Notes under the pieces: generated by a model
Databases searched by the model: none
What the model saw: the letters and a program-made list of their open reading frames with translations, nothing else
What the model was told of the DNA's origin: nothing
From: Bremia lactucae
Taxonomy: Eukaryota; Oomycota; Peronosporomycetes; Peronosporales; Peronosporaceae
Assembly (NCBI RefSeq): GCF_004359215.1
Contig: NW_027152055.1
Location: 252,775 to 316,774 of the forward strand
Direction: 5' to 3'
Length of the DNA: 64,000 nucleotides
Shown here: positions 4,843 to 52,439 of the stretch, piece after piece
Layout of the letters: every line of letters begins with the position of its first letter
Position numbering within the stretch: position 1 is the first letter of the stretch
Translations under genes and position numbers: made by a program

Positions 4843-4855
4843 CCCTCCCCCATCA
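4843..4855 (-). promoter_or_regulatory. Polypurine tract of element A
   Basis: On the minus strand TGATGGGGGAGGG directly precedes the LTR TG. The same tract precedes the 3' LTR of element C at 52,261-52,273. This is the expected plus-strand priming site. Confidence 0.8.
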
Positions 4856-4956
4856 GACTGTTGACACCGAGTGACAACATTCGCTTCATTTCCTCTTTAA
4901 GATTGGAACCTAAACAGCTTACCGTTCGGTTGTGTTTTTTTCTTTCCTTTGTCTAA

Positions 4957-7475: not shown

Positions 7476-7492
7476 TAAAGCTCGTAGCAGAG

Positions 7493-8953: not shown

Positions 8954-9950
8954 GGAATAAAAGGGATCCGTTGGATCTTTAAGGATCGATGCCCCATTTC
9001 ACATACTAAGTGCAGCTTTTGTGTCAACCAGCACAGCTTCGTCTAGAAGTGACGCTGAGTTTAACTCAACCATAGGTCGAATGACAACCATTTCAGATAA
9101 GTCACCAGCTTTTAAGGCTCGACCGCACTCATCAATAGACATTTCGTCTAGCTCTAAAAGAGCATGTAACGAAGGGATTGCCGCAAGACTAACTTCCCCT
9201 CAATGTTACAGGTTACGCCATTTACAAGCGTATCTACTTGCTCACTCGTATCACTTTGTGAGGGTATAAACGCTTCGTGTCCATCCTGTCTTGGAGTGGA
9301 GACAATACGCCTCTTAGAGGCCGGGACAATCACGTCCCCGGCTTTTCCAGCCTGTATTGGTTTTATACAAGACATGGGTCTAATTTGACATCCGGCAAGG
9401 AGTTAGGTAACTCAACTTCCTTATCCAGCGAACGTTTACGTGTCGCTTCATGTGCATTAGGAGGGTTTGACCCAAAGTGCCCTGGGGAACTGCCAATAGT
9501 GTCACTATTGACACTCAGTATGGTGCCACCTCGGCCGACCACACTCGCTGGACTTAGACGTGCCACTCCACGTATCTCAGGGATATTGCACCATTGAGGT
9601 CCTGGCGAACCGCCAACAGTGTCACTACTGACACTCACCTCGGCCGACCATACTCGGTGGACTTAGACGTACCACTCCACGTATCTCAGGGATATTAAAC
9701 CCTTGATGATTCGGCCTTAGGCCAACAATGCTTTCAGCATTTAGTGAATCGTTATTATAACGAGTGTCATTCGACGAAGTATGTGCCCTTTCACTTATTT
9801 CTGCAGAGTCGGGCTCAGAATTAATGTTTTTAACATTAGAGCTTATTAACTCAGACATGCCAATGTCTAAAACACGGACAGACTCATTCAATGATCCGCG
9901 CAAATAACGTTTTTCTTGCCTAGCAAAGGTGGGTTCATGACTCTCCAAAA
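8954..9950 (-). pseudogene. Element A protease-RT linker
   Basis: A 1-kb Ser/Pro-rich region between protease and RT encodes low-complexity sequence with repeated I-P-E-I-R-G-V-x-R-L-S-P-x-S and V-G-R-G-G-T units. Two tandem copies of this unit occur here (about 9500-9600 and 9630-9710), where element C has one. It has no recognised domain. It is in the same place in elements A, A2 and C, so it belongs to pol of this family. Confidence 0.7.
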
Positions 9951-9960
9951 CTTTGCTAGG

Positions 9961-10330
9961 AACATTGCGCGTGGTGCCTAAGGTCTTAGACCTCCAATCG
10001 ATCCATGGTCATGGTGTTCTAACCAGGCCATACCAAGAATAAGATCATGTATCGAATTCAAATCAAGGACGAGACAGCGTTCCATACTGTCAAAGTGCAG
10101 AAACTTTATACGTAAGTTCAATGGAACTTTGGGAACAGTGACACGAGTCCCAGTCGCTAAGCGAACAGTTATTGTATCACCTTCATGCGCTCTAAGCGCC
10201 TCACCGTGTTGTCGACTTCCTTCAAGGGAAAGGCGTCGAGCATAATTGCAAGACGCTCCTGAGTCAATTAAAATTGACCATGGCTTATCAAACCCTTTAC
10301 AGTCGCGTGAGCGACTAGCAAGCTAGGCTT
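9961..10330 (-). pseudogene. Element A retropepsin
   Basis: The minus frame reads W-S-I-L-I-D-S-G-A-S-C-N near 10,285, the aspartic protease active site, then V-R-L-A-T-G and the D-L-I-L-G-M-A-W-L strand near 10,040. This is the Gypsy retropepsin pattern. It follows the gag zinc knuckle and precedes the linker. Confidence 0.8.
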
Positions 10331-10443
10331 GTACTCTCGCTTCGTGCCATTGAGCACCGAGGTAATTGGGGCTAGGTTCTGTTTATTCTCACCTCCTGGA
10401 GGTTCAACAGATCCTAGGTCTTCCCCAGTAGGGCGCCCCGCAC

Positions 10444-11266
10444 CTACTGGGGATTGTCGTTTTCCCGCACCGAACCAGATCTCTGGTATAGGTCGGAGTT
10501 GGAGCTCTTTCGAGATTTACGCCAATTTCGAAGAGGGCAGGCAGGGCGTAAATGTTTTGTGCTTCCGCATATATAACATCTGCGGATGGTCTTATGCTGT
10601 TCCACACCTTTAACAGCCTCTTCTCCTTCCTCAACGAGGCTTAAATCCATGGGTTCCGCTCTATTAGACGGAACCCATGTGCTCGAAGAGCTTGTTCGGT
10701 ACGCAGGCGTGCTAACACGAGCCGACTTAAAGTCGAACTCAGCAAGTAGCGCTATGGCAACTGCCTCTTCGAAAGTAGCAGGATGAGATCGGAATAAAAT
10801 CGTCCGGGCAACGCCCTCATTGAGACACCCCATAAAGAGTGTTAATACAATTGTTTCTTGCACCGGGTCTTGATGCATAGATGCAATGAGAGTTCTTAAC
10901 TCCTGGACTAAGTCCCCTAAGATTCTTTTACCCTGTCGAGTCGCTAGGAGCCGTGCCCGCATGTGAAAAGCCTGATCAGGCGGTGCGAACATGCTGATCA
11001 TTTGCTGTTTCAGTGAATCCCATGAGGGAAAAGCGTCGTTTATGAACGTACTGCACGATAGTGCTCACTCCATGGCTCTACCTCCGAGTTTGGAAATGGC
11101 AATAGCCACATTTTGTTGTTCTGTTAAGAACAAGGCGAAGTCAATGGACACCCCCATCTGCTTAATCCAAAAAGGGAGATTTTCTCCCTCTTTTCCCTTA
11201 AATGTCTTCAGACTTACAGTTAGAGGGCGGAGCCCTGGGCTCTGAGTCAGGTACAGAGATGTACCG
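10444..11266 (-). pseudogene. Element A gag (N-terminus missing)
   Basis: Capsid-type gag: P-F-W-I-K-Q-M and L-T-E-Q-Q-N-V-A-I-A near 11,160, a second part with R-A-R-L-L-A-T-R-Q-G-K-R, and a CCHC zinc knuckle C-Y-I-C-G-S-T-K-H-L-R-P-A-C near 10,575. The knuckle binds RNA in the virus-like particle. A frame change lies near 11,030. The first about 50 residues are absent: gag is cut at 11,266 by the TG of an LTR in the opposite orientation. Confidence 0.85.
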
Positions 11267-11751
11267 TGTAATGGGGCACACATCGGTTGGAGAACCTTTG
11301 TTGTGGTACATTTACTTTATGGGTAAAATACTCTTTATCTATTTTAAAATAGTTAGTTACTTAAATCCCATTTATTATGGGTAATAAATGTGGTCGCCAC
11401 CAGGTATAAATCTGGCGGCCAAAATCTATTATTTTATTTAGCTAGGGTAAGGTTTTTAGATTTCAATAATAAAAAAAGTGCAGTTCCTCTTTTGATCATA
11501 AAGCGTTAAGTGCCTTCCTAAGGCTTGCGCATTGATCTGTAAGAGATAGAAGCCTTTCTCAGGTATATCCTCGTGGGCACTAGTTGCCACTTGGTTCTAC
11601 GAACCCCTGAATCCCTTGAACTAGGATTCCTTAAGATTTTATAGCTTGTACGACTCCCTGAGTTGTTCAACCCATTAGTTCAATAGAACTAAGTGACTCT
11701 CTGAGTCTGAAAGTCTTCCTCTGACTTTAGGAGCGAGGTAGCTCCGCTACA
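11267..11751 (+). repeat. Alpha-family LTR, 485 bp, plus orientation
   Basis: Starts TGTAATGGGG and ends CGCTACA, so TG...CA. Its first 442 bp are identical to the LTR at 17,599-18,083, and the last 43 bp differ. A primer binding site follows 2 bp downstream. It is the 5' LTR of the plus-strand half element A2. Confidence 0.9.
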
Positions 11752-11753
11752 TC

Positions 11754-11770
11754 TGGTAGCACTCGTAGTC
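11754..11770 (+). promoter_or_regulatory. Primer binding site of element A2
   Basis: TGGTAGCACTCGTAGTC starts 2 bp after the LTR, the usual place. It would pair with a tRNA ending GACTACGAGTGCTACCA. The same motif follows the alpha LTRs at 18,086 and 37,063, and a close variant lies beside element B's 5' LTR. It is not the initiator-Met type site. Confidence 0.7.
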
Positions 11771-11811
11771 AATCTACGCCTCAGTCTTTACAAGACTAAT
11801 TTCTCACGAAA

Positions 11812-12830
11812 ATGGAAGAGGTTCCAAATTGTTAGAAGCGCAACGCGCCGCTTATGACAAGCTCAAAACCTCATTCGGGCTTGAGCACGTGGAATTTATT
11901 ATCTCCCAGGGACCAGAGGCCCTGCATGCAAGGCTTGAAGCTTCATGCGGTATGAAGCCTCCCTGATCGGTCAGGTACAGGACCAATTAGCGGCATATAT
12001 GCCAACCTGGTACATCTCTGTACCTGACTCAGAGCCGAGGGCTCGCCCTTTAACTGTAAATGTGAAAACATTTGAGGAAAAAGAGGGAGAAAATCTCCCT
12101 TTTTGGATTAAGCAGATGGAAATGTTCATTGATTTCGCCTTGTTCTTAACAGAACGGCAAAAGGTGGCTATGGCCATTTCCAAACTTGGAGGTAGAGCCA
12201 TGGAATGGGCACTATTGTGCAGCACGTCCATAAACGACGCTTTTCCCTCATGGGATTCGCTGAAACAGCAAATGACCAGCATGTTTGCACCGCCTGATGA
12301 GGCTTTTCGCATGCGAGCACGGCTCCTAGCGACTCCACAGGGTAGAGAACCCTAGGGCACTTTGTCCAGGAGTTGAGAACTCTCATTGAATCTATACATC
12401 AAGACCCGGTGCAAGAAGCAATTGTAGTGACCATCTTATGGGGGGTCTTAATGAGGGCGTTTGCCGGACGAAATTGTTCCGATCTCATCCGGCTACGTTC
12501 GAAGAGGCAGTTGCCATAACGCTCCGCGCCGAGTTTCACTTTAAGTCTGCTCGCGTTAGCACGCCTATTTACCGAACAAGCTCTTAAAGCACATGGGTTC
12601 TGTCTAATAGAGCGGAACCTATGGATTTTATCCTCGTTGAAGAAGGAGAAGAGGCGCTTCAAGCTGTGGAACAGCATAAGACCATCCGTAGATGTTATAT
12701 GTGCGGAAGCACGAAACATTTACGCCCTGCCTTCCCTCTTCGAAATTTGCGTAAAGCTCGAAAGAGCTCCAACTCCGACCTAGACCAAAGATCTGGTACG
12801 GTGCGGGAAAACGTCGATACCCAGTAGGCG
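11812..12830 (+). pseudogene. Element A2 gag
   Basis: The ATG at 11,812 gives M-E-E-V-P and soon hits a stop caused by a small frame change. From 11,945 a 136-codon frame gives the capsid region (P-F-W-I-K-Q-M-E-M; L-T-E-R-Q-K-V-A-M-A). Further changes follow near 12,350 and 12,600. The CCHC knuckle C-Y-M-C-G-S-T-K-H-L-R-P-A lies near 12,700, with its last Cys changed to Phe (A-F-P). It shows the N-terminus that element A lacks. Confidence 0.85.
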
Positions 12831-12949
12831 CGGGGCGCCCTACTGGGGAAGACCTAGGCTCTGTTGAACCTCAAGGAGGTGAGAATAAACAGAACCTAGC
12901 CCCAATAAGCTCGGTGCTCAATGGCACGGGGCGAGAGTTCAAGCCTGGC

Positions 12950-13919
12950 TTGCTAGTCGCTCAAGCGACTGTAAAGGGCTTTGATAAGCCGTGGTCAATT
13001 TAAATTGACTCAGGAGCGTCTTGCAATTATGCTCGACGCCTTTCCTTTGAAGGAAGTTATCAATACGTTGAGGCGCTTAAAGCGCATGAAGATGATACAA
13101 TCACTGTTCGCTTGGCGACTGGTAATCGTGTCACTGTTCCCAAAGTTCCATTAAACTTAGGTATAATGTTTCTGGACTTTGACAGTATGGAGCGCTGTCT
13201 CGTCCTTAATTTGGATTCGAGATATGATCTCATCCTTGGTATGGCCTGGTTAGATCACCATGAGCCATAGATCGATTGGAGGTCTAAGACCTTAGGCGCC
13301 ACGCGCAATGTTCCTAGCAAAGTTTTGGAGAGTCATGAACCCACCTTTGCTAGGCATCAAAAGCGCTATTGTTGCGGATCATTGAATGCGTCTGTCAGTG
13401 TTTTAGACATTGGCATGTCTGAGTTATAAACTCTACTGTTAAAAACATTAATTCCGAGCCGACTCAGCAGAAATAAGTGGAACGGCACGTACTCCGTCGA
13501 GAGGCACTCGTTATAATAGCGATTCACTAAATACTGAAAGCATTGTTGGCCTAAGGCCAAATCAGCAAGGGTCCAATATCCCTGAGACACGTGGAGTGGC
13601 ACGTCTAAGTCCACCGAGTATGGTCGGCCGAGGTGGCACCATACCGATAGTCATTAGTGGCACTATTGGCAGTTCGCCAGGGCATTTTGGGTCAAACCCT
13701 CCGAATGGACGTGAAGCGACATTTAAACATTCGCTGAATAAGGAAGTTGAGTTACCTAACCCCTTGTCAGATGACAGATTAGACATTATGTCTTGTATAG
13801 AACCAATACAGGCTGGAAAATCCGGGGACGTGAACGTCCCGGCCTCTTAGAGGCGTATTGTTTTTATTCCAAGACAGGGTGGACACGAAGCGTGTCTACA
13901 CTCACAACGTGTTACGAGC
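12950..13919 (+). pseudogene. Element A2 protease and truncated linker
   Basis: The retropepsin region aligns with those of A and C around 12,990-13,260 (L-R-L-A-T-G; D-L-I-L-G-M-A-W-L). A TAA replaces an Ile codon just before the D-S-G-A-S active site. The linker follows with the V-A-R-L-S-P-P-S-M-V-G-R-G-G-T unit near 13,600 and ends at the head-to-head joint at 13,919. Confidence 0.75.
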
Positions 13920-15285
13920 GATAACGCATCGGCCAAAGCATTCTGCTTGTCGGGTATATACTTCACCTCGAAGTTGCATTCCGCGAAAAAGGATAGCCAT
14001 CGGGCCATTCTCTGTGAGAGAATGGGGCGACTTAGTCGCTGTTCATATGACGCGTGATCTGTATATATCACAAACGGCTTAGAGCCGAGCAGATGAACTC
14101 TGAATTTGACGAGAGCATACTTCATAGCAAGTAACTCTTTGTCGTGAACTGGGTAGTTCTTTCCGCAGCTTGAAGCTGTCTAGACTCGAACGCAATAACA
14201 TGTTCGTGCTCATCAACATCTGTTTGTAACAGAGCACTGCCAATGGCAAAATCTGATGCGTCACAGACGACACTGAAAGGCCAATTTGGGTTTGGCAGTG
14301 CCAGATGCGGGGCATGGATAAGACTATCCTTAACTGCTCGAAAAGCATTATTTTCGGTGCTAATCCAGCACCATTCTGTATCCTTTTTAAGGAGATTAGA
14401 TAATGGCCTCGCCATATCAGCGTAATTTTCGCTTTCTTTTGTGTAAAAAATTGGCGAGACCCAACCACTTACGCAAATCCTTTTGGTTTTTAGGAATCGG
14501 CCAATCTATTATGGCTTTTCCCTTAGCGGGGTCCGCTCTAAGGCCTCGCTTTCCAATGAAGCATCCTAAAAAAGGAATTTCGTCTGCGCCAAAAATGCAT
14601 TTAGATGCATTGGCATACAATTTGTTTGTGCGCATGCACTCGAGCACTGCTCGCAGATGGTCTAAATGGTTTTCCATATCCGACCGACCCTGCTCCGCAC
14701 GACTATGGACAAAAATGTGATCGAAATAAGTCAGTGCATAACCTCGATGAGGGCGAAACAGTGTTTCACTAGACGATTAAATGTTGCCGGGGCGTTGGAA
14801 AGCCCTTGTGGCGTAACCATCCACTCCCATAACATGCCGCTTGGCGTGCTAACCGCTGTAAGCGGGATATCGCTAGCTCGCTTGAGCAATTGGTTGTAAC
14901 CATCAAATAAGTCCAATGCACTGTACATTGTACTGCCCACCATATTATTTTGAAGAACATTCTTTGTAGGAATGGGGGTTTGTGCTGGTATAGTGACAGC
15001 ATCGAGCCTGTTATAAGCATGTACAATGCGCCATTCACCAATTGGCTTCTTGACACAAAATGTCGGTGTCGAATGAGGCGATTTGCTCTCTCGTACCAAT
15101 CCAGCCTCGTACTTAGCACGGAAGAAATCGTCAATGACGTCACACTGCTCCTTTGGTAAAGGCCATTGTCTTGTGACACAGTATTTGGTTCCCGGAACCA
15201 AGTCAATTTCATCACGAACACCTCCATCCGGAGGTAAAACAGATGGTGGGTTATTACATACCACATCTTGGAATTCCTTAATCAA
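13920..15285 (-). pseudogene. Element A' reverse transcriptase and RNase H
   Basis: Same RT as element A, with the same frameshift near 14,732 and the same F-D-H-I catalytic change. The RNase H end (Y-A-L-V-K-F-R-V-H-L-L-G and I-Y-T-D-H-A-S) lies near 14,060-14,125. The frame continues past it to A-L-A-D-A-L-S, then changes sequence at the joint at about 13,919. Confidence 0.9.
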
Positions 15286-16280
15286 GGAATAAAAGGGATC
15301 CGTTGGATCTTTAAGGATCGATGCCCCATTTCACATACTAAGTGCAGCTTTTGTGTCAACCAGCACAGCTTCGTCTAGAAGTGACGCTGAGTTTAACTCA
15401 ACCATAGGTCGAATGACAACCATTTCAGATAAGTCACCAGCTTTTAAGGCTCGACCGCACTCATCAATAGACATTTCGTCTAGCTCTAAAAGAGCATGTA
15501 ACGAAGGGATTGCCGCAAGACTAACTTCCCCTCAATGTTACAGGTTACGCCATTTACAAGCGTATCTACTTGCTCACTCGTATCACTTTGTGAGGGTATA
15601 AACGCTTCGTGTCCATCCTGTCTTGGAGTGGAGACAATACGCCTCTTAGAGGCCGGGACAATCACGTCCCCGGCTTTTCCAGCCTGTATTGGTTTTATAC
15701 AAGACATGGGTCTAATTTGACATCCGGCAAGGAGTTAGGTAACTCAACTTCCTTATCCAGCGAACGTTTACGTGTCGCTTCATGTGCATTAGGAGGGTTT
15801 GACCCAAAGTGCCCTGGGGAACTGCCAATAGTGTCACTATTGACACTCAGTATGGTGCCACCTCGGCCGACCACACTCGCTGGACTTAGACGTGCCACTC
15901 CACGTATCTCAGGGATATTGCACCATTGAGGTCCTGGCGAACCGCCAACAGTGTCACTACTGACACTCACCTCGGCCGACCATACTCGGTGGACTTAGAC
16001 GTACCACTCCACGTATCTCAGGGATATTAAACCCTTGATGATTCGGCCTTAGGCCAACAATGCTTTCAGCATTTAGTGAATCGTTATTATAACGAGTGTC
16101 ATTCGACGAAGTATGTGCCCTTTCACTTATTTCTGCAGAGTCGGGCTCAGAATTAATGTTTTTAACATTAGAGCTTATTAACTCAGACATGCCAATGTCT
16201 AAAACACGGACAGACTCATTCAATGATCCGCGCAAATAACGTTTTTCTTGCCTAGCAAAGGTGGGTTCATGACTCTCCAA
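15286..16280 (-). pseudogene. Element A' protease-RT linker
   Basis: Identical to the linker at 8954-9948, including the tandem duplicated I-P-E-I-R-G-V unit. It carries no independent information. Confidence 0.7.
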
Positions 16281-16289
16281 AACTTTGCT

Positions 16290-16660
16290 AGGAACATTGC
16301 GCGTGGTGCCTAAGGTCTTAGACCTCCAATCGATCCATGGTCATGGTGTTCTAACCAGGCCATACCAAGAATAAGATCATGTATCGAATTCAAATCAAGG
16401 ACGAGACAGCGTTCCATACTGTCAAAGTGCAGAAACTTTATACGTAAGTTCAATGGAACTTTGGGAACAGTGACACGAGTCCCAGTCGCTAAGCGAACAG
16501 TTATTGTATCACCTTCATGCGCTCTAAGCGCCTCACCGTGTTGTCGACTTCCTTCAAGGGAAAGGCGTCGAGCATAATTGCAAGACGCTCCTGAGTCAAT
16601 TAAAATTGACCATGGCTTATCAAACCCTTTACAGTCGCGTGAGCGACTAGCAAGCTAGGC
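16290..16660 (-). pseudogene. Element A' retropepsin
   Basis: Exact copy of the element A protease at the 6,332-bp offset, with the I-D-S-G-A-S site near 16,617. Confidence 0.8.
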
Positions 16661-16775
16661 TTGTACTCTCGCTTCGTGCCATTGAGCACCGAGGTAATTG
16701 GGGCTAGGTTCTGTTTATTCTCACCTCCTGGAGGTTCAACAGATCCTAGGTCTTCCCCAGTAGGGCGCCCCGCAC

Positions 16776-17598
16776 CTACTGGGGATTGTCGTTTTCCCGC
16801 ACCGAACCAGATCTCTGGTATAGGTCGGAGTTGGAGCTCTTTCGAGATTTACGCCAATTTCGAAGAGGGCAGGCAGGGCGTAAATGTTTTGTGCTTCCGC
16901 ATATATAACATCTGCGGATGGTCTTATGCTGTTCCACACCTTTAACAGCCTCTTCTCCTTCCTCAACGAGGCTTAAATCCATGGGTTCCGCTCTATTAGA
17001 CGGAACCCATGTGCTCGAAGAGCTTGTTCGGTACGCAGGCGTGCTAACACGAGCCGACTTAAAGTCGAACTCAGCAAGTAGCGCTATGGCAACTGCCTCT
17101 TCGAAAGTAGCAGGATGAGATCGGAATAAAATCGTCCGGGCAACGCCCTCATTGAGACACCCCATAAAGAGTGTTAATACAATTGTTTCTTGCACCGGGT
17201 CTTGATGCATAGATGCAATGAGAGTTCTTAACTCCTGGACTAAGTCCCCTAAGATTCTTTTACCCTGTCGAGTCGCTAGGAGCCGTGCCCGCATGTGAAA
17301 AGCCTGATCAGGCGGTGCGAACATGCTGATCATTTGCTGTTTCAGTGAATCCCATGAGGGAAAAGCGTCGTTTATGAACGTACTGCACGATAGTGCTCAC
17401 TCCATGGCTCTACCTCCGAGTTTGGAAATGGCAATAGCCACATTTTGTTGTTCTGTTAAGAACAAGGCGAAGTCAATGGACACCCCCATCTGCTTAATCC
17501 AAAAAGGGAGATTTTCTCCCTCTTTTCCCTTAAATGTCTTCAGACTTACAGTTAGAGGGCGGAGCCCTGGGCTCTGAGTCAGGTACAGAGATGTACCG
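16776..17598 (-). pseudogene. Element A' gag (N-terminus missing)
   Basis: Exact copy of gag at 10,444-11,266, with the same zinc knuckle and the same truncation against an LTR. The shared junction shows that the LTR beside it was duplicated together with gag. Confidence 0.85.
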
Positions 17599-18083
17599 TG
17601 TAATGGGGCACACATCGGTTGGAGAACCTTTGTTGTGGTACATTTACTTTATGGGTAAAATACTCTTTATCTATTTTAAAATAGTTAGTTACTTAAATCC
17701 CATTTATTATGGGTAATAAATGTGGTCGCCACCAGGTATAAATCTGGCGGCCAAAATCTATTATTTTATTTAGCTAGGGTAAGGTTTTTAGATTTCAATA
17801 ATAAAAAAAGTGCAGTTCCTCTTTTGATCATAAAGCGTTAAGTGCCTTCCTAAGGCTTGCGCATTGATCTGTAAGAGATAGAAGCCTTTCTCAGGTATAT
17901 CCTCGTGGGCACTAGTTGCCACTTGGTTCTACGAACCCCTGAATCCCTTGAACTAGGATTCCTTAAGATTTTATAGCTTGTACGACTCCCTGAGTTGTTC
18001 AACCCATTAGTTCAATAGAACTAAGTGACTCTCTGAGTCTAAAAGTTTTCTTCTGACTTTAGCAGCGAGGTAGCTCCGCTACA
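17599..18083 (+). repeat. Alpha-family LTR, 485 bp, plus orientation (second copy)
   Basis: TGTAATGGGG to CGCTACA. It is identical to 11,267-11,708 until 18,040, then carries several differences in the last 43 bp. A primer site (18,086-18,102) and a short leader follow. At about 18,160 the sequence changes abruptly to RT of family D. Confidence 0.9.
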
Positions 18084-18085
18084 CC

Positions 18086-18102
18086 TGGTAGCACTCGTAG
18101 TC
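18086..18102 (+). promoter_or_regulatory. Primer binding site after second alpha LTR
   Basis: TGGTAGCACTCGTAGTC, identical to the one at 11,754. The leader after it lacks the gag start and joins a D-family RT within 60 bp. Confidence 0.7.
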
Positions 18103-18159
18103 AATCTACGCCTGAGTCTTTAGGAGACTAATTTCTTACGAAATGTAAAGAGGTTCGAG

Positions 18160-20348: not shown

Positions 20349-21883
20349 TCAATTACCCCCATCATTAAGGAGACCGATGGTGACGCCGACTGTGAGTCGA
20401 GCGTCGTTCGGGTGAGGGAGACGGAGAAGGCGAAAACTCTTAGCCGATCGGCTTCTCCCACCACGAACAGGACTCGGAGGGCGAGGGACATCACGCAAGT
20501 AAAGCGGATTCCTTAGCATGATCAGCTCAAAAAGGCCCAAGCGAGTCTTCAGGTGTTCATAACCCTGACGAGCCTTTGCTCGGACATCACAAAGATCCGA
20601 GGTCAGTTTCGAGACTTGACCCTCGAGATCCGCAATACGGCGTTCAGCAGCGCTAGACGCGTGTGACTGAAGGGACGGAGGTAAGGCACTTGCGAGTAGG
20701 TGGGCGAGATCGCCACTCCTATCGGGCGCCACCTGCACTGATAAATGCGGGTGGGAATCAACCCTTTTTTGCTGGAAAGTTGCTTGCTTACCGCTCCGTG
20801 AGGCAAAGGTATCAGATCCTCGTCCAATGGAAAGGTTACCCGAAGGGTTTCGACTCTTGGGAACCAATCGATACCCTACGTATTGATGTTTCCGGCTTGG
20901 TGGTTGCCTATGAAAAGGAGCACCAGCTGAGGCCTTTTCGCAAGTCTCAAATGGTCTAGCAGAAGCAGCGTTGTGAGAAGAAACAGGGGGTACCACCCAT
21001 GATTTCTTTCTCACGCAAGTGGGCAAAACTAATTCGTTGCGACCGCTGTTTCATCGCACCGGAATGCAGACGAATGCGCCGCGTGAATTCCGCCTCGTAC
21101 TGGTCGGGCGTTTTATTTGAACGCAACACGACCGGATCGGGAAAATATGCCCAAGCGATTTCCCTGAGCCCTCCATGATTGAAAGACGCCATAATAATTA
21201 TGTGCGTCAACAAGAGCGCGCTCTAGGAGCGACGCTCTTGGCCCGTTTAAACGAGGCCTTTCAGTTGGAGGGGGCATCTTTGGAATGCCACCCGTCACAT
21301 AGCCACGTTTTAAACGAATGGCTTGTGACACCGACTGAGCACGTTCACGTGTTGTCGGCGGAGCTTTAGGCTCCGAATCCTCTATGTCAGAACCAATATG
21401 GATTATGGTCTGAGCATAAAGCGTTGTGGTTATACCCAACGGAGAAGCGGCTGCGCCTTTATGGGCAGCGCTCTCATTACCTGTCGCTGCGCTTTCCAGC
21501 GCAGACGACGAGACAGCATTCGTAAATGCTGCTGTCTCCATGTTGTGAGCCATGAGAGAAGTTTGGATGGGCAATCATGCGCCATCATCCTTCCTCATGA
21601 GCGCGTTGTCCGCATCACTACTATGAGGTGACGGCAACAATGTCGACTCATTGAATCGACAATGAGTGACGGATTAACATCCTCACTATTAAAGTGGGGT
21701 GGATCCTTTAGCCCCGTTGACGCGACAGCAGCAGGCTGTCGGCGTTTCGACTAAGGCATTGGACGCAGCCGGCGAATTAACGCGGCGGGTGCGCTTAGTG
21801 CGAGGTAAGGTGGGCGTCTTCGCAGACGACCCATCAACGTGGCCCCTTTTCGGTGGCATCTTTGGCGCCGTGTATATGAACAC
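20349..21883 (-). pseudogene. Opposite-strand ORF of element D (broken)
   Basis: The ATG at 21,883 (or 21,859) lies 107-131 bp inside the LTR. The first piece (to 21,689) reads M-P-P-K-R-G and is basic. Pieces 21,574-21,113, 21,213-20,956 and 21,026-20,349 continue in different frames. The last, 225 codons, contains a coiled coil (E-R-R-I-A-D-L-E-G-Q-V-S-K-L) and then a basic tail. It lies opposite the chromodomain and integrase end. Comparison with the fragment at 23,519-23,911 shows the breaks to be single-base losses. The function is unknown. Confidence 0.6.
20663..20959 (+). pseudogene. Element D chromodomain
   Basis: The frame holds R-Y-Q-I-L-V-Q-W-K-G-Y-P-K-G-F-D-S-W-E-P followed by a C-terminal helix. 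The fold-defining Tyr, Trp-Lys-Gly-Tyr and Trp-Glu-Pro positions are kept. The stop is at 20,957-20,959. In chromoviruses the domain guides integration to heterochromatin. The opposite strand of this stretch is also open (see the opposite-strand ORF). Confidence 0.85.
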
Positions 21884-23518: not shown

Positions 23519-23911
23519 GTGCCGCTAAATTTAATTTTAGATTCGTCAAAAAGGCACAAATTTGAGTGTGGGGAAAGCTCNAATGCCTTAGTCGGAACGC
23601 AGACAGCCACTGCGGCTGTCGCGTTAACAGGGCTAAAGGATCCATCCCACTTTAACAGTGAGGATGTTGATCCGTCGCTCATTGTCGACTACAATGAGTC
23701 GACACCGTTGCCGTCACCTCATAGTAGTGATGCGGACAACGAGCTCATGAGGAAGGATGATGGCGCATTATTGCCCATCCAAACTTCTCTCATGGCTCAC
23801 AACATGGAGACAGCAGCATTTACGAATGCTGTCTCGTCGTCTGCGCTAGAAAGCACAGCGACCGGTAATGAGAGCGCTGCTTATAAAGGCGCAGCCGCTT
23901 CTCCGTTGAAT
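23519..23911 (+). pseudogene. Fragment of the family D opposite-strand ORF (plus orientation)
   Basis: An open frame carries, from residue 41, D-P-S-H-F-N-S-E-D-V-D-P-S-L-I-V-D-Y then acidic Ser-rich sequence. It is the least damaged N-terminal part of this protein in the window. It holds a single ambiguous base, N, at 23,581. At about 23,911 it meets an inverted copy of itself. Confidence 0.65.
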
Positions 23912-24352
23912 AAGATGGAGGGGGCATCTTTGGTATGCCACCCGTCACATAGCCACGTTCTAAACGACTGGCTTGTGACACCGACTGAGCACGTTCACGT
24001 GTCGTCGGCGGAGCTTTAGGCTCCGAATCCTCTATGTCAGAACCATTATGGATTATGGTCTGAGCATAAGGCGTTGTGGTTATACCCAACGGAGAAGCGG
24101 CTGCGCCTTTATGGGCAGCGCTCTCATTACCTGTCGCTGCGCTTTCCAGCGCAGACGACGAGACAGCATTCGTAAATGCTGCTGTCTCCATGTTGTGAGC
24201 CATGAGAGAAGTTTGGATGGGCAATCATGCGCCATCATCCTTCCTCATGAGCGCGTTGTCCGCATCACTACTATGAGGTGACGGCAACAATGTCGACTCA
24301 TTGAATCGACAATGAGTGACGGATTAACATCCTCACTATTAAAGTGGGGTGG
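23638..24352. repeat. Imperfect inverted repeat, about 270-bp arms and 170-bp loop
   Basis: The arm 23,638-23,909 pairs with 24,080-24,352, for example GGATCCATCCCACTTTAA against TTAAAGTGGGGTGGATCC, and CATGGAGACAGCAGCATT against its complement near 24,175. Few mismatches are seen. Such a structure could fold back or arise by template switching. Confidence 0.75.
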
Positions 24353-24533
24353 ATCCTTTAGCCCCGTTGACGCGACAGCAGCAGGCTGTCGGCGTTTCGA
24401 CTAAGGCATTGGACGCAGCCGGCGAATTAACGCGGCGGGTGCGCTTAGTGCGAGGTAAGGTGGGCGTCTTCGCAGACGACCCATCAACGTGGCCCCTTTT
24501 CGGTGGCATCTTTGGCGCCGTGTATATGAACAC
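23912..24533 (-). pseudogene. Second copy of the family D opposite-strand ORF N-terminus (minus orientation)
   Basis: Same sequence as 21,262-21,883 at an offset of 2,650 bp, with the ATG at 24,533. It is identical from about 24,070 rightwards and diverges slightly to the left. With 23,638-23,909 it forms a long inverted repeat. Confidence 0.65.
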
Positions 24534-34823: not shown

Positions 34824-36010
34824 CTACTTCAAGTGGTTTCGATCTTGCAACACCGCAAGCTCTTCCTGGAGCCCCATGACGTACTTCACCATCTCGTCTC
34901 GTGATGAACAGGAATTCATAATCATGTTGCGCAGCGCAAGGCGCGCCAAAGTAACGTTAGGTATCTCTTTCGTTAGCAAGTGCCGAGGCACAGACGGCGC
35001 AACAGGCGAGGCACTGGAACTTTTTACCAAGCAACTAGCAAAATTAGCATGTTGGAGCTTGTTTTTGTGCGGCGAGGTGGATGTCGTTGAGCTCACGTAT
35101 GAAGACACGGCAACGCCGTTCGCGAGACGGGTCCCCTTACGGCCATCACGTCAGCTTCGTGATCAGCCATGACCGAATCTGGAGCCCAGGAAGACGCACA
35201 ATTCGCCACGCAAGCCCGAAAACCCGCACGCTTGCAACCTCCCGCGCGAATATGCACGAGAACGAACTCGCCAATCTCATTCCTTCCCGTCTTGTCTGCA
35301 AGCATCACGGCGTGCATTCGAAACACCTTTTTCTTGGCAGAGACGTAGGTCGGTCGACTGAAGCACGTGGCTGTAATGTAGCGTACAATCGGCAGCTTTT
35401 TTGGCAAGCCCGTGACGAAGCTCATTTTTCGCCATTCAAAGTCCTTACTTGACTCCTTTTTGCCCTCAGTGTTGGCACCTATCGAGCGCGGAGCCATCTC
35501 ACTCGGTGCTTTTCTCTTGCGTGGAAAGCCAAATGAACCCTTGCCCAGCAGACGGGAGCACTTAAGGAAGTACATGCACGAGACGGGCTGGCTATAGATA
35601 AACTCTGGATGCAGGGGGACACCCCGTGAATCCACGCCAAAGTCATACACAGGAATCTTAAACTCGCTTTGGAGTGTCAAGAGGATGTTGAAGTACTGCT
35701 TCGCCGAGGGCCATGGCGTCTTGTCCTCCACCTCGCTCTCGTTCAGTTGTAACTGTATAGAGGCCTCTGGTTGATTTTGAATTGATGCTATCGATGGCCC
35801 GTCACTTCGCTTCTCAGTCACCACGTTTCCATGGCGCTGCCTTTGAGTCGCCAGTAACTCGGCTAGTCCAGGCAACACCATAAGGTGCGGCAATTTCTCA
35901 AAATAGCCCTGCGCTAAATTGGCATACGGCGATGCATTGCTTTCAGGCGAGCGCGGTCGTTTGCGGCGAATCAGCTGGATTGTGGGTACCCACTGCGCGT
36001 CGTTATCCAT
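34824..36010 (-). CDS. Conserved-looking protein of unknown function, 374 aa, two exons
   Basis: Exons are 36,010-35,097 and 35,034-34,824; the sum, 1,125 nt, is exactly 375 codons with the stop. Near the N-terminus is a basic R-R-K-R-P-R-S-P patch, probably nuclear. Residues about 95-150 hold a charged segment and Y-D-F-G-V-D-S-R-G-V-P-L-H-P-E-F-I-Y. The middle has G-S-F-G-F-P-R-K-R-K. The C-terminal 30 residues form a short coiled coil (V-K-Y-V-M-G-L-Q-E-E-L-A-V-L). No known domain is recognised. The long clean frame, correct splicing and lack of retroelement motifs argue for a real host gene. A 105-bp tandem duplication lies 64 bp upstream of the ATG. No neighbour suggests its role. Confidence 0.75.
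35035..35096 (-). other. 62-bp intron of the 374-aa gene
   Basis: On the minus strand the donor GTGAGC, branch-like GCTAAT and acceptor TTTGCTAG are present. Without splicing the frame ends at TGA in the donor; with it His-Thr-Cys-Leu-Val-Lys continues into the C-terminal exon in frame. Length and signals match oomycete introns. Confidence 0.8.
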
Positions 36011-36073
36011 GTCGCGTGTCAGTGAGTCGAATTTGGCAACTAGAATACTGAATAGTGCTTCTCAACGTCAATT

Positions 36074-36283
36074 GATCAATTAAAAGAGTAAGCCTCGCAG
36101 AAGTAGTACGCGAGACGACTCCTTCGGTACCGCTTCTGCTAACTTGAGCTCTGCAGAGCCGGAGAAAGCATCTCTATGGATCAATTAAAACTGTAATCCT
36201 CGCAGAAGTAGTACGCGATACGACTCCTTCGGTACCGCTTCTGCTAACTTGAGCTCTGCAGAGCCGAAGAGAGCATTTCTATG
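36074..36283. repeat. 105-bp tandem duplication upstream of the 374-aa gene
   Basis: Units 36,074-36,178 and 36,179-36,283 both start GATCAATTAAAA and contain CGCAGAAGTAGTACGCGA and ACTTGAGCTCTGCAGAGCCG. They differ at about ten positions. They lie in the promoter region of the minus-strand gene. Confidence 0.9.
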
Positions 36284-37120: not shown

Positions 37121-37187
37121 ATGGAAGAGGTTCCAGAGTTGAGAAAACCGCAACGTGCCGCTAATGACAAGCTCAATACCTTATTTG
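37121..37187 (+). pseudogene. Element C gag, N-terminal part before the element B insertion
   Basis: ATG at 37,121: M-E-E-V-P-E-L-R-K-P-Q-R-A-A. After 22 codons the target duplication ATTTG and the LTR of element B interrupt it. The frame resumes at 45,786 after B. It gives the true alpha gag start, which other copies have lost. Confidence 0.85.
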
Positions 37188-37642
37188 TGTAACGGGGCAC
37201 TACGACTTGTACTGCTTCAGTACAAGTCCACTTCGCACTGCTTCAGTTGCGAGTGGTCCCCTACGTTATTTCACGTACACTAGTACGCGCAGAGGAAGAC
37301 TTCTCTCTAAGGTAACTAGCTTTAAGAGGGCAGAAATGAAAACTGTAATAATATAATTAAGTATCTCTTCTATGTATCTTGTTAATGCTAACTTAATTAT
37401 AATCTAATACTAAACATGTAATTGAATTCTTATCTCTATCTTATCTGTAATTCTCTCTTTGGTTACTCCAACAGCTGATTAGTCTGCGGAATAAATAGGT
37501 ATAAATGGTCTATACCTATTCATGGATAAGAACTTTGAATATTACTACATAAAGTAATAGCCTCCAAATACTATGTACCTTTTCGAATATATTAATAATA
37601 ATCTTTAAGTGTTAATTTCATGTAGCGATACACCCCGTTACA
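37188..37642 (-). repeat. 3' LTR of element B (455 bp)
   Basis: On the plus strand TGTAACGGGG...CCCCGTTACA; its inverted ends are imperfectly palindromic. The minus-strand purine tract TTAAGGGAGGGG borders it at 37,643-37,656. Confidence 0.92.
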
Positions 37643-37762
37643 TCACCCCTCCCTTAAACGACAATCACTCTGAGTGTCATTGAATGGGGTGGTTGTCATG
37701 TGACCACTTAAATTTTAAAAAGATGTTGATTGGTCAGATCCATCATTTTAAATTTCCATCGC

Positions 37763-39393
37763 ATGAAGAATCAGCTCATGCGGGGTGCCGATAGTGCTGC
37801 GCCTTCGGCTGCGGTTCGTGCAGCCGCGCCGCGGGTGATGCACTGTTATCTCTTGCGGCAGACGGAACGTCTGCTGTAGTGTCTTCCACTCGCACAACAC
37901 TAGATGTTGCGAGTGCACGTGGTGATTCACCACGTAAATACGACCCCTCTTTGGAGGTCGACTACGAATGCGAGTCGGATGGAATGGCCGACTCGGGGAG
38001 AAAGGAACAGTCGCCTGATAGACGTCAGGCGGCTGGCTATGAGCCTTCGAATGAGAGGGCTCATTCTGATACACGAGTAAATAGTCTATTTGGATCCGAC
38101 GATGAGGATGATCCCTCATCGCCCGTACGATCTCCCATACGGTCACCTGCACGTGTTTCTGTGCAAGGTGACGACGATGGCGAAAGCCATTGTAAGAAAA
38201 GTTCTTGTGGTACCCCTGCTTCATTGGGTGCCACTCAGGGGAGTGAAGACAGTAAAATGTCTAATCTCGCCCCTGTAAAGAAGTCTTGGCTTTTGCCAGA
38301 ACGGCTTATCAATAGCTTGTCTGGAGAAACTACTCCTCACAACAAATAACCTTTTTTTATTGCGACAAAGCTACATGGCCTTGAACCCAGCGCGAAGAAC
38401 TTTTGCGCTGAGGAAGATTTTTATCTCGATGTTTTTCTTAAGCATCGATGGTTTAGTGGTAACAATAAGCGAGATAAAGGCTCGCTTATGCAAGCCTGGA
38501 GCGCGTTCATTCGCAATGTCAAAGACATTGGACGCAAAGCCTGGCTTCAAAAACTTAACGCGAATTGCGTTAAACTTGAGAAAAGAACTCCAACCGGTGC
38601 AAAGTATAAATTGCATCGGTTGTCACGTGAGCCTGGGCTTCCATGCCTCACGTGGGGTGATCCCTGTCCGTGTTGTGTAGACAACTCGAAGAGGGTAAAA
38701 GGGGATGTCTATTCCCTTTCTTCGCCCTGGGGAAGGGCTCGCATCTCGATTGGGATGCGTGACGCGATTGACGTTTTGCAATCGATTTACATGCGCCAGG
38801 GGCGCGTGTTTACCGATGGGCCTTCTGAACCATCGGATGGGTCTCGTCATACTGACGGACGAGGCCCTCAACTTCAGCAATCAGCTGGGAACGAGGCTCC
38901 CAGCTGTCATGTGAAGGTGGATAACCACGCCAGCGAACAAGATAATTCGTTCGCTGCCCCTTCACATCCCGGTGGTTCTAGATACGTTCCACAAAGAAAC
39001 GCTGACCCTCGTGGGAATCCACCAATAATTGTGGTGGAGGAGGGAAAATTAGATCCGAACCGTATGTCAGATCTAATGTCGAGGATCGACAAAATCGATT
39101 ACTTCCTCCATGATTTGGAGGAGGGACTCGACCACGAGCGCGGCAAGCGTCGCTCGTTGGAGCAGACGGTGCAGGCTCACCATATCGAGCGGTTGGAAGA
39201 CCGTTCGAAGAGTGCGTACTCCATGTTGGAGTACGAACGGAAGTATCATGCTGTTCGCGATGAGCTGTCGTCAGCTCATCGTAGTTTCGAGGATATTCGG
39301 AACCGGCATGAGAAACTTCAGGTTCAACATGAGAATCTGGTTCGCGATCACAAGAATCTGTTCGGGATACTTGAAAAGGGTGGTCAGATCTGA
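37763..39393 (+). pseudogene. Opposite-strand ORF of element B, about 540 codons with one frameshift and one stop
   Basis: The ATG at 37,763 is 121 bp inside the LTR. After about 25 codons a one-base shift leads into a frame open to 39,393, apart from one TAA at 38,347-38,349. Regions: Ala-rich start; acidic Ser-rich part with Y-D-P-S-L-E-V-D-Y at 37,942 and D-D-E-D-D-P-S-S; a central Trp-containing segment (D-F-Y-L-D-V-F-L-K-H-R-W; L-M-Q-A-W-S-A-F) near 38,430-38,500; a C-P-C-C pair; and a long coiled coil from about 39,080 to 39,380. The last 580 bp lie opposite the integrase end and chromodomain of pol. It has no known family and no retroelement enzyme motif. Families A/C and D carry counterparts. 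Confidence 0.7.
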
Positions 39394-39787
39394 CCTCGGA
39401 AAAAGCCGCGCACTGATGGTACGGGTGGAGCCGACCAACGTAAAACGTAGGATGCGTTCGCATCCTGCGTGGCAATTCTATTGTGTACGCATTGCCTCTG
39501 CGATGTAGTACACGGAAAGGACCAATGAACTTGGTAGTAGTTTTCTGCTTCTCACATTAGTGGCTAATCGCTTAGGTACGTTTACCGTAGAGAGTAGCAC
39601 TAGATCATTAATTTTAATTGAATGAACATTTGCTCTTCCATGTTTGTTTGCATTCCGTTTCTGTCGGTCCACTGCGTTAGCAATGGAATTCTGAACGAAA
39701 CGGATTATTGATTCTCGAGTTAGCAGCAATTCTTCTGCTGACTGATTTGTTTTGTCTTTTTTAGTACGCTTTGTGCGTACTGCCATG
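38810..39787 (-). pseudogene. Element B integrase C-terminus and chromodomain
   Basis: 39,787-39,478 carries the integrase end (I-N-D-L-V-L-L-S-T), then a shift into R-M-R-T-H-P-T-F-Y-V-G-R-L and a Pro-rich linker. The chromodomain reads R-F-F-V-E-R-I, an in-frame TAG, then N-H-R-D-V-K-G-Q-R-T-N-Y-L-V-R-W-R-G-Y-P and S-W-E-P, complete apart from the stop. The frame ends at TAA 38,812-38,810. Confidence 0.85.
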
Positions 39788-45327: not shown

Positions 45328-45329
45328 GG

Positions 45330-45785
45330 TGTAACGGGGCACGACGACTTGAACTGCTTCAGTACAAGTCACTTAGCACTGCTTCAGTTGCGAGTGGTGT
45401 CTAACGTTATTTCACATACACTTGTACGTGCAGAGGAAGGCTTCTCCTTAAGGTAACAAGCTTAAAGAGGGTTAAATATAAATTGTATTAATATAATTAA
45501 GTATCTCTTTTTCTATCTTTGTAAATGCTAACTAAATTAGAATCTAATACTAACATGTAATTCAATTCTTATCTATATCTGATCTGTAACTCTCTCTCTT
45601 TGATTACTCGTACAGCTGATTAGCCTGCGGAATAAATAGGTAGAATGGTCTATACCTATTTATGGATAAGAATTCTGAATATTACTATATAAAGTAATAT
45701 CCTGCAAATATTATGTACCTTTTAGATAATGTATTAATTAACAACCTTTAAGTGTTAATTTCATGTAACAATACACCCAGTTACA
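45330..45785 (-). repeat. 5' LTR of element B (456 bp)
   Basis: Partner of 37,188-37,642, with the same ends and many substitutions. The right target duplication ATTTG follows at 45,786. Confidence 0.92.
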
Positions 45786-49500: not shown

Positions 49501-50850
49501 AGTTTTCTAATTCAACGACTATCTCGTTACCTATTCTTGAATTAATCCGTTCGGCTTACGCCAAGGATGAACAGTGTGTAGCTCTGCTACGAGCTCCAAA
49601 GAACTCGGATTCAGGTATCAAATTACCGGCACGTTTGCGCGCAAGGTTACATCGATTTTCTATCGATAATAACCTGTTGCTTTATTGCACAGACATCGCG
49701 GACCCTCCGCGTGTCGTTGTTCCTCATGATGAGGATTTGAAGTACCACATCCTTTATAAGGCACACGATACTGTCCTTGGTGGTCATCTCGGCAGAGAAA
49801 AGACCTACGGCTCTATAAGCCAGAGTTATTGATGGCCCAAACTTTATAAAGGGGTCAGCACATATGTTCGCACATGCGAAACGTGCCAACGGGTTTTACC
49901 CTCGGCACATGCTACTGCGCCACTGGCGAGTCTTCCCGTCCCCATAGGTTCCGGGAGTCCACTACTATGGATTTTGCTTTTGGGCTACCGAAAGATTCAG
50001 CCGGTAACTCCGGTATAGTGGTCTTTGCGACCGTTTGAGCAAAACGGCTCACTTAGCGGCCGATCTGGATTCCATTGATGGAGCGGGTACAGCTAAGCTG
50101 TTTATCGATCGCGTGTTTCAACAACATGGTTTGCCAGTGGCAATTGTCTCTGATCGGGATCCCCGTTTCACGGGTAAATTCTAGAAACCAATTTTCCGAG
50201 TGCTTCGCACTAGATTAGATATGTGCACTGCGGGCCATCCGCAGACCGATGGTCAAATTGAATGTGTCAATCGCGTCATTGAAGACGTTTTACGCAGCTT
50301 GTGTGCCCAAACATCAAAGCGCTGGAGCTCAATGCTCTCAGCAGTGGAGTTTGCGTTAAATAACGCGGTTCATGCCTCTACAGGCTATACTCCGTTATAT
50401 GTAGCGGTCTTACCCACCCGCGCGTTCCATTAACGATACCACTGCGTGGTTCAGGGCTTGGTGGGGTTGCATTGGCCGGTAGGCTTGCTGATATCAGCCC
50501 TGTTAACGTTCGGAAACAAGTAAGCGAGTTTCTCGCGACGCGATTCAGTGTCTTAAGACATGTAAGGGACACGCTGGCTGATAGCCAAGACAAACAAAAA
50601 GAACTAGCAGATGCCAAAGGCAGAAGCTGTATTAATTCCTATATATGGTCGGAGACCGAGTTTTAGTAAACGCTAAGAGCCTACCTACCAACTTGGTTTC
50701 CGCGATCTTGAAGACCAAATTGCGCCCGCGCTTTTTTGGACCATTTATCGTGGCCAAGAAGGGCATAGCTTATACGCTAAACCTCCCTAGCAATCTTCGT
50801 ACACACCCAGTGTCTTACGTTGGCTGCTTAAGCCATATCGGGACCCTTCC
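49501..50850 (+). pseudogene. Element C integrase
   Basis: HHCC domain (G-G-H-L-G-R-E-K-T-Y; C-E-T-C-Q-R-V), core strand with T-M-D-F-A-F-G, V-S-D-R-D-P-R-F-T near 50,155, P-Q-T-D-G-Q-I-E-C-V-N-R near 50,240, and the GPY/F end (F-F-G-P-F-I-V-A-K-K-G). All three catalytic positions can be found, though in several frames. Confidence 0.88.
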
Positions 50851-50852
50851 GC

Positions 50853-51200
50853 GTGGACTGGAAGGCGCTTGCGCCGAGACAGGCGGTCGTGCCGCAGATT
50901 GTTGCATCCTCACCAGAAGATCCAACTGGCCCTCTAAACGAGGCTGCTGACACTACAGCGTCGAAATACGGTCCCGAACCGCTCCAAAAGAGCTCTCAAC
51001 CCGAGCGAGAACCTCACGAAGAAGTTGCACCTCTTGCCGTAGAGCATCAAATGCTTACGCCGAAATTTCGGCCCCCTGCCGCGCTGCTTGATGCGCGGGG
51101 GGACCTTCAGTTTCGCGTGGAGAAACTTATAAAGCGACGTCGTCGTGAGGATCAATAACAGTATCTGGTGAAGTGACTAAGGTAACCCTCTTCTGAAAAC
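50853..51200 (+). pseudogene. Element C pol tail and chromodomain remnant
   Basis: A Pro/Glu-rich tail frame (50,853-51,158) ends R-V-E-K-L-I-K-R-R-R-R-E-D-Q and a stop; Q-Y-L-V-K-W follows directly and then decays. It is the counterpart of 6256-5930 in element A. Confidence 0.7.
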
Positions 51201-52158
51201 TTTTAAGAGTAGGAGGAACCTCTTCGGCAAGATTGCCCGTACGCCGTTGACGTTTTTGAGCGCCAAGCTCAGGGTCAACTCTCGTCAAACGACGATTCCC
51301 ACCACTAAACGTGGAATTAGGTGGATCAAAAGCCTCAGTGCGGCTCCGATCCTTGGTTGTAAGGTTAACCGAAGCACTGAAATATCGGCTAGGCCTTTCT
51401 TCGTTTTGTGGCATAAATGCCGAACGTAACTGGCCTTTGGCCTTAAGCTTAGCGAAGTCGAAGCGAAGCTTCCTTCCCAATCGAACATCACCTCTATCCG
51501 CAGACTCTCTGATATTCCAGATATCACGAAGTTTGCGGGCCCGGTGAACCCAGTGATGAGACTTCGTTTTCAGTCCTTGTTTCGTTTGTAAGCAAAACGA
51601 TCGGAATTTCCCTCATGGAGGTCACCGAAGCTCCACGGGCTTGATCACGTTAACGCGTCAGATACTGGCTTCGCGTCATTACCTTTGGCGTAAAAGTATT
51701 GCTCATGAAGAGCGCGTCGCGGGCAGCGATCTCCATCGGCTTCCTCGCCCGGTCACCCAGAGATCTAGATGGCCAAGCTATGACCCGCTATCTCTTTGAG
51801 ACGCTCGTCAGCACTAAGCGGAGTGAATTTATAGTTACTATGAGCTTTCGCTTTCGCTATCTCAGCAGCTCGACGACGAGCTCTTTCCTCTATGAGAATT
51901 ATCTGCTCTTGCTCTTCATCGAGCGGATTCGTAATGATGTTGGACTCAGGGTCCCGTGTCCGGCTCAATGCAGTTACGACAACAGCGGCCACGTCCTGGG
52001 AACGGATTCGGAACCCGCCGACGTTCATCCGGGGGAGAAGGCGTGAGCGAGCGCCGCTCTTTTTCTTCCTCCTCTGATTGAGAGTGACTTTCAAATTCCA
52101 CCATTCCCCCATCGTCGAGGAAGGTGCTTAGAGTCTATTAGTCACGCTTGATTGTCAT
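50853..52158 (-). pseudogene. Opposite-strand ORF of element C (broken)
   Basis: The minus strand carries the same protein as 4957-6330: D-D-G-G-M-V-E-F-E and Glu-rich part near 52,110-52,050, D-P-E-S-N-I-I near 51,940, the Arg-rich central part (K-L-R-F-D-F-A-K-L-K-A-K-G, 51,480-51,430), then TAA at 51,057-51,055, at the same place as in element A. The coiled coil (V-Q-L-L-R-E-V-L-A-R-V-E-S-S) follows in the same frame. The ATG counterpart near 52,158 is followed after five codons by a TAA. Confidence 0.6.
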
Positions 52159-52260
52159 TAGACAAAGGAATGAAAAAAAACAACAACCGAACGGTTAGCT
52201 GTTTAGGTTCCAATCTCAAAGAGGAAATGAAGCGAATGTTGTCACTCGATGTCAACAGTC

Positions 52261-52314
52261 TGATGGGGGAGGGTGTAATGGGGCACACATCGGTTGGAGA
52301 ACCGTTGTTGTGTA
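52261..52314 (+). repeat. Purine tract and truncated 3' LTR of element C
   Basis: TGATGGGGGAGGG (52,261-52,273), then 41 bp of alpha LTR start, ending at GTTGTTGTGT. Beyond it, D-type LTR sequence begins. Confidence 0.85.
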
Positions 52315-52439
52315 AAAATAACGGGATTGTCAACTACATCATGTGAAGTACTTAGACCTGACACTCAGGTGTGGTGCACATAGTGACCCACCTTCTTGTA
52401 TGTGACATTAATGGGTGCATTCTTATTGAAAGAAATGAT

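Follow-up and report, generated by a model that had tools for sequence, protein, structure and literature searches.

Does the long open reading frame (ORF) that lies on the strand opposite gag-pol in Ty3/Gypsy elements of the downy mildew Bremia lactucae constitute a gene? The question is raised by a 64,000-nucleotide stretch of contig NW_027152055.1 (assembly GCF_004359215.1, positions 252,775 to 316,774 of the forward strand), hereafter the window, in which elements A, B, C, and D each carry such a frame, with C belonging to the family of A. An earlier note, prepared from the letters of the window, had proposed a real accessory gene of oomycete chromoviruses common to three families. For element B the answer is clear: the opposite-strand frame is real. 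The first part of the proposal has held, in that the frame is open beyond chance, has relatives in other downy mildews, and is under purifying selection in the B and A families. The second part has held in one respect. Homology was demonstrated between the A and D genes, whereas that of B to either was not, and D displays no distinct signal of selection within the genome.

The host of the frame is a chromodomain Ty3/Gypsy (chromovirus-like) element. The gag-pol region of B is encoded on the minus strand between a 5' long terminal repeat (LTR) at 45329-45785 and a 3' LTR at 37187-37642, which were paired by blastn. The two minus-strand LTRs are 87% identical, and thus the insertion is old. Between them lie, in order, gag, reverse transcriptase (RT), RNase H, an integrase zinc domain, SH3, and the chromodomain. 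The 3' end of pol, delineated at 38747-39556 of the minus strand from Pfam matches and translation, is formed by SH3_Tf2-1, a linker, and the chromodomain. The latter was matched by Pfam in relative L011 (E = 5.2e-14) and was read from the translation in the window copy. The pol frame of the window copy contains stops too; its last stop is at 38810, and that of L011 is at the place equal to ~38747.

The antisense gene of B extends from about 37778 to 39450 on the plus strand, as judged by tblastn with P0001, a 559-residue relative whose residues 16-559 correspond to 37828-39447 at 88%. It begins ~135 bp inward of the 3' LTR (LTR edge 37642, start 37778), traverses the spacer between pol and the LTR, and continues across from the sequence for the chromodomain and the linker as far as the SH3 motif. 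The gene and pol are convergent, and the 3' part of the former overlaps the pol chromodomain and the SH3-chromodomain linker. Its placement between the 3' LTR and the integrase/chromodomain, as first described, was therefore correct with respect to the antisense site but not with respect to this overlap.

Two plus-strand open segments, 37795-38346 (184 codons) and 38350-39390 (347 codons), share one register and are separated by a single stop at 38347-38349. The ATG codons at 37763 and 37778 are in a different register, and hence the frame shifts once close to its beginning, near 37826. Note that the ATG at 37763, from which the frame was initially drawn, is an upstream ATG in frame with that at 37778. 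The original description was of about 540 codons with one shift and one stop. The frame and its shift are indeed present, but the stop at 39391-39393 is a second premature one, because P0001 continues to 39447. The openness of the frame is well beyond expectation. Not one of 1000 dinucleotide-preserving shuffles of 37187-39700 contained at least 347 open codons (maximum 256), and none matched the 531 codons of the two adjacent segments taken together (maximum 287). The 347-codon segment is the second longest open stretch in the window, surpassed only by one of 522 codons at 2668-4233.

Copies of the gene are numerous. In the 115.9-Mb assembly (220 contigs), at least 117 candidates were scored for the 347-residue piece, yielding 120 match rows with identities of 71-100%, and ten of these, the window's own counted, cover at least 343 of the 347 residues without a stop. 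When a protein of Peronospora matthiolae was employed as the query, 83 rows were obtained, one of which spans residues 1-528 without a stop. At least 150 matches apiece were scored for the A and D pieces.

Relatives were also found in other species, with the whole query being covered for B. The protein database contains 121 relatives of B at E up to 0.001. The best whole-query matches listed are predicted proteins from P. matthiolae (Peronosporaceae) of 498-552 residues, with 42-44% identity over ~100% of the query, and two of these are cluster representatives, for 1335 and 524 sequences, respectively. A 463-residue protein from Hyaloperonospora arabidopsidis shows 54% identity over 77% of the query. 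For A and D, the counts refer to matches scored among the 8000 candidates sharing most words. There are at least 35 relatives of A, including proteins from H. arabidopsidis, P. farinosa, and P. matthiolae (best named species, 42% identity over 67%), and at least 19 of D (P. farinosa, 54% over 81%; P. effusa, 53% over 74%). The named species are downy mildews of the genera Peronospora, which includes P. matthiolae, and Hyaloperonospora. The C-terminal tails of P. matthiolae proteins P0020, P0029, and P0108 match window frames opposite the SH3 region of B, and the tail of one P. farinosa protein matches D copies in the B. lactucae genome. The same antisense position is thus indicated in those species.

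Conservation along the B protein is uneven. Its central, predicted helical core is encoded by 38266-38745 of the plus strand, namely by DNA beyond the end of an intact pol. Residues 166-250 of P0001 display fractional identities of 0.68 to P0006 from H. arabidopsidis and 0.51 to 20 P. matthiolae proteins, and for residues 251-325, likewise beyond pol, the values are 0.60 and 0.65, respectively. They are 0.69 and 0.37 for residues 326-405, which lie opposite the chromodomain, and 0.33 in both comparisons for residues 406-559. There are 22 invariant columns in the B family. Nineteen of them fall within residues 254-305 (~38530-38685), beyond pol, and three are opposite the linker. The core also contains a conserved C-x6-C-x-C-C cluster formed by C292, C299, C301, and C302.

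Purifying selection on the antisense frame is supported in both the B and A families. For B, the ratio of non-synonymous to synonymous change (ω) was calculated by the method of Nei and Gojobori over all pairs of 43 rows, with bootstrapping over codons. The rows were the window and 42 copies: the best-scoring rows L010-L038, less L035, which is near-identical to L034, and 14 more diverged copies taken from the remaining rows of the 347-residue genome search. The alignments are shallow and the copies old. In the antisense-only region, 38350-38746, ω is 0.45 (confidence interval 0.34-0.60). Opposite the linker, 38986-39390, it is 0.54 (0.42-0.72) in the antisense frame versus 0.99 (0.74-1.32) in the pol frame. 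Opposite the chromodomain, 38747-38985, the corresponding values are 0.81 (0.53-1.28) and 0.66 (0.45-0.98). The constraint therefore tracks pol where the chromodomain is encoded, and in the other parts it tracks the antisense gene. When each copy is compared with the window, the antisense ω is 0.53-0.61. Additionally, variants common to at least three copies are less often non-synonymous in the antisense frame than are singletons (odds ratio 0.58, p = 7e-4), the strongest effect in any of the six frames. In four of the other frames the ratios are 0.72-1.13 (p > 0.05), and in the pol frame the effect is confined to the chromodomain (odds ratio 0.36, p = 0.004).

Elements A and D follow the same plan as B, with an antisense gene that is convergent with pol and overlaps its end. 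In A the gene was located at 4956-6321 of the plus strand by tblastn with P0121 and with the frame of an A copy, and frame changes break the window copy. The pol of A ends near 5807, within that span, and Pfam identifies both the chromodomain and SH3 in the pol of the A and B families. The antisense gene of element C, a member of the A family, is fragmented and occupies 50782-52333 of the minus strand (tblastn). In D the gene, with frame changes, was placed at 20463-21859 of the minus strand by tblastn with P0157, and the last pol codon ends at 20956; the D chromodomain was read by eye in the translation. A second, rearranged, and partial copy of D at 23597-24509 has N-terminal parts on both strands. 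For the A family, five copies chosen from 150 for their long open frames were aligned with the window A and C copies. The antisense ω is 0.52 in the antisense-only part and 0.58 in the overlap, and the other frames give 0.66-1.11. A ~6,332-bp block of element A is repeated in tandem over 4433-18158, where most of the compared stretches are 98-100% identical and others ~90%, and the ORFs at 8402-8998 and 14734-15330 within it are identical. This block is either a recent tandem duplication sharing LTRs or an artefact of assembly.

Several observations weigh against a coding antisense gene under selection. In the comparisons of B copies with the window, the minus-strand frame that shares antisense third positions is also low in ω (0.56-0.66), as expected from the sharing, and minus phase 0, for which this is less expected, has a value of 0.61 in the antisense-only comparison of close copies. 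In the test of shared variants versus singletons, the frame sharing third positions likewise gives an odds ratio of 0.64 (p = 0.006). Bootstrapping over codons understates the uncertainty, because the copies are related. Whereas mostly-stop codon columns number 0 of 434 (283 + 151) in the antisense frame of A, as compared to 12-37 in any one of the remaining five, this count is favored by the picking of copies for long open frames. In D, for which 30 loci with some duplicates were aligned, ω is 0.84 and 0.78, no lower than in the other frames of that element, and the case for D is thus one of openness (no mostly-stop column in 229 + 182 antisense codons versus 10-27 in the other frames) and of conservation between species rather than of ω within the genome. 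Against H. arabidopsidis, the part of the B protein that overlaps the chromodomain is as conserved as the core. The database lists the related proteins of other species as unnamed or uncharacterized. Finally, adjoining Inr-like and FPR-like oomycete promoter motifs are found at 37743-37757, 20 nucleotides before the ATG at 37763, but the pair is private to the window copy: the Inr-like motif occurs in 16 of 27 rows, the FPR motif in one, and both together in none. With all of these points considered, that the antisense frame is a coding gene under selection is very likely. The sequences show that chromodomain-bearing Ty3/Gypsy elements of this genome possess a protein-coding accessory gene, antisense to gag-pol and placed between pol and the 3' LTR.

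Whether the A, B, and D genes constitute one family was addressed by profile comparison. The A and D proteins are homologous (E = 1.3e-9, probability 96%), and the relationship persists when the comparison is restricted to antisense-only DNA (3.9e-6) or to the cores (7.8e-7), with null results for the reversed controls. The B profile shows no detectable similarity to those of A and D in the antisense-only part (0.16 and 0.32). The earlier linking of the families by short motifs is weak. DPSLEVDY (37942) in B and DPSLIVDY (23669) in D are present as described, but, among relatives with a length of 350 residues or greater, a VDY or VDF within the first 150 is kept in only one of 90 for B, as compared to seven of eight for D and three of five for A. 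The motif at 23669 sits not in the main D frame, which runs from 21859 to 20463 on the minus strand, but in the rearranged partial copy. DGMxD is likewise present in B (37978) and A (5004), but the A copies of the same genome have DEGMVD or DEKMVD, and in those database relatives whose sequence extends this far, no more than the VDY part is retained.

It is close to an even call, though leaning slightly the other way, that a single fast-evolving antisense gene was ancestral to the whole clade of elements, with B being a remote homologue of A and D that has evolved faster than pol. The position, strand, and convergent overlap are the same in all three, the layouts are similar, the window copies of B and D share the short VDY motif, and the homologous pair is also the closer one in RT (A-D, 57-67% identity; A-B, 41-53% over most of RT; B-D, 44%). 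The absence of profile similarity between B and the others in the antisense-only part argues against such an ancestor, as do the 89 of 90 B relatives lacking VDY or VDF and the conserved cysteine cluster of B, which has no counterpart in the A and D alignments. The RNase H and integrase pieces give no consistent ranking of the families, and with the rankings thus mixed, one fast gene and a separate acquisition in B are both possible. The latter, in which an unrelated gene was captured by B at the antisense site used in A and D such that the site is common but the gene is not, is rather doubtful. It would account for the lack of profile similarity and for the differing conserved motifs, but it is less economical given the same placement, orientation, and layout, and no host homologue was recognised among the 120 matches listed for B in a search that reaches only relatives sharing short exact words.

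The three proteins appear broadly to share a layout consisting of a disordered N-terminus, a compact core, and a long C-terminal coiled coil. In the model of P0001 (mean predicted local distance difference test score, pLDDT, of 48), residues 1-202 are unstructured, helices at 198-342 are of low confidence, and residues 429-536 form a single high-confidence helix with a pLDDT of 73-93 in ten-residue blocks from 431. This putative coiled coil is encoded by 38986-39447 of the plus strand, opposite the SH3-chromodomain linker of pol. The model of an A protein (mean 57) contains a compact core at residues 141-250, with block values of 75-86, and a coiled-coil helix at 375-430. The layout first claimed is broadly right. 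The first 60 residues are acidic in both B and both A proteins profiled, basic in D protein P0157, and near neutral in D protein P0164. A mostly basic composition is seen in the block surrounding the core.

In the proposed mechanism, transcription would initiate at an antisense promoter in or beside the 3' LTR to yield a protein of ~450-560 residues, with a disordered and mostly acidic N-terminus and a compact, largely helical core in a mostly basic region. The long coiled coil would allow the formation of oligomers, and the basic clusters may direct nuclear import. Most likely, the protein would act as a regulator in the nucleus or as a factor in contact with chromatin, adjusting how its own element is transcribed, silenced, or integrated, in a manner like that of the plant Grande GENE23 and Retand antisense ORFs or deltaretroviral HBZ. 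The nuclear regulatory role by itself is tentative and somewhat short of an even chance. Nuclear localization and contact with DNA or chromatin are suggested by composition only, and no Pfam, fold, or sequence match names a function; both points count against it. No Pfam match above the cut-off was observed for the antisense proteins. Taken as a whole, a selected antisense accessory gene encoding such a factor is the best explanation, and we consider it fairly probable.

HBZ displays an acidic N-terminus, a basic centre, and a coiled coil in that order, which is analogous to the arrangement in the antisense proteins described here. According to PMC7412551, HBZ of human T-cell leukemia virus type 1 is a regulator with a leucine zipper, and it shares with the present genes its origin as an antisense gene of an LTR element. 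The closest known kind, alike in position and not in sequence, is the plant antisense ORFs between pol and the 3' LTR, or aORF-3R (maize Grande gene23, rice RIRE2, Silene Retand, and PvRetro13). As described in PMC7264820 and PMC11963269, these too adjoin the 3' LTR in antisense orientation, are conserved throughout their families, have no recognised cellular homologue, and are suspected of a nuclear role; GENE23 is nuclear, and TRP28 of Retand is a suspected DNA binder. The genes in the window likewise lie between pol and the 3' LTR, but they differ in their oomycete host and in additionally overprinting the pol linker and chromodomain. Retand is described as a non-chromovirus lineage, in contrast to the chromodomain-containing elements here (A and B by Pfam, D by eye). 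No match to TRP28/Transposase_28 (PF04195) was obtained at E up to 10 for the ten proteins or at E up to 1 for the window pieces, no SMC match was found by Pfam in the antisense proteins, and neither the ten proteins nor the window pieces gave a bZIP match or any sequence relation to HBZ. With the TRP28 and bZIP tests failing, the proteins are regarded as working like these systems rather than as members of them. Chronos, an oomycete Gypsy element, also possesses a chromodomain, together with an archaeal-type RNase H (PMC5348765), but the B, A, and D pol pieces scanned, the pol frames in the window being broken, gave only RT_RNaseH-type RNase H matches and no second RNase H; the word "antisense" does not occur in the main text of that paper. 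A literature search that covered few subscription papers turned up, among the papers listed, no description of this kind of gene from an oomycete. A wider scenario, in which a single fast-evolving regulatory antisense gene ancestral to the clade was independently invented for a third time among LTR elements, with plants and deltaretroviruses being the other two cases, and took over the evolution of a pol linker devoid of protein-level constraint of its own by overprinting it, is speculative and less likely than not.

Other accounts of the gene fare less well. An unlikely one is that the protein functions in the particle or during integration rather than in transcription, with the coiled coil, for example, binding integrase or the chromodomain and steering target choice; in each of the three families the gene lies across from the part of pol that encodes the integrase linker and the chromodomain, but position in DNA says nothing direct on binding, and there is no informative fold match. 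It is quite improbable that the antisense RNA is what matters, for example as a source for small-RNA silencing or in the attenuation of gag-pol, and that the protein is secondary. Regulatory antisense transcripts are discussed for plant elements (PMC7264820), but a role of RNA alone predicts no synonymous preference in one frame, contrary to the ω values of A and B. That the open frame is a side effect of coding in pol, or a matter of chance, with no protein being made, is strongly disfavored and extremely unlikely, since, even though opposite-strand frames of up to 246 codons at eight Copia loci of this genome mean that length inside a coding overlap proves little, 19 of the 22 invariant residues and the ω of 0.45 lie beyond pol, the linker constraint follows the antisense frame, and the B, A, and D proteins are conserved between species. 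The Copia loci (L001-L008) are pol frames, several of them long and open, and their antisense frames overlap coding sequence.

Antisense accessory genes of LTR elements have been documented in plants and a few retroviruses, and their function in plants is unknown. A conserved, overprinted case in oomycetes shows the same strategy in a further lineage of eukaryotes, and it is a clean one in that, of two frames that overlap, the one under selection can be told from the other. The protein family so identified is present among the uncharacterized entries of downy-mildew proteomes, as in the two large P. matthiolae clusters. Such entries inflate gene counts and can pass for host or secreted proteins. 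Indeed, among the B relatives, UniRef labels P0116 an "RxLR effector candidate" and P0006 a "Core-binding (CB) domain" protein, a term referring to tyrosine recombinases; P0006 has no Pfam match, and a comparison of a low-confidence model with folds in the PDB gave no significant match.

Elsewhere in the window, two tandem 105-bp units with 91% identity are located at 36068-36277, next to a 322-codon open frame on the minus strand (35096-36061) with no Pfam match at E up to 0.01. Ranking first and third in length among the open stretches of the window, the frames at 2668-4233 (minus strand, 522 codons) and 973-1983 (plus strand, 337 codons) also have no Pfam match and are probably host genes. 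The frame at 973-1983 ends in a paired-cysteine motif.
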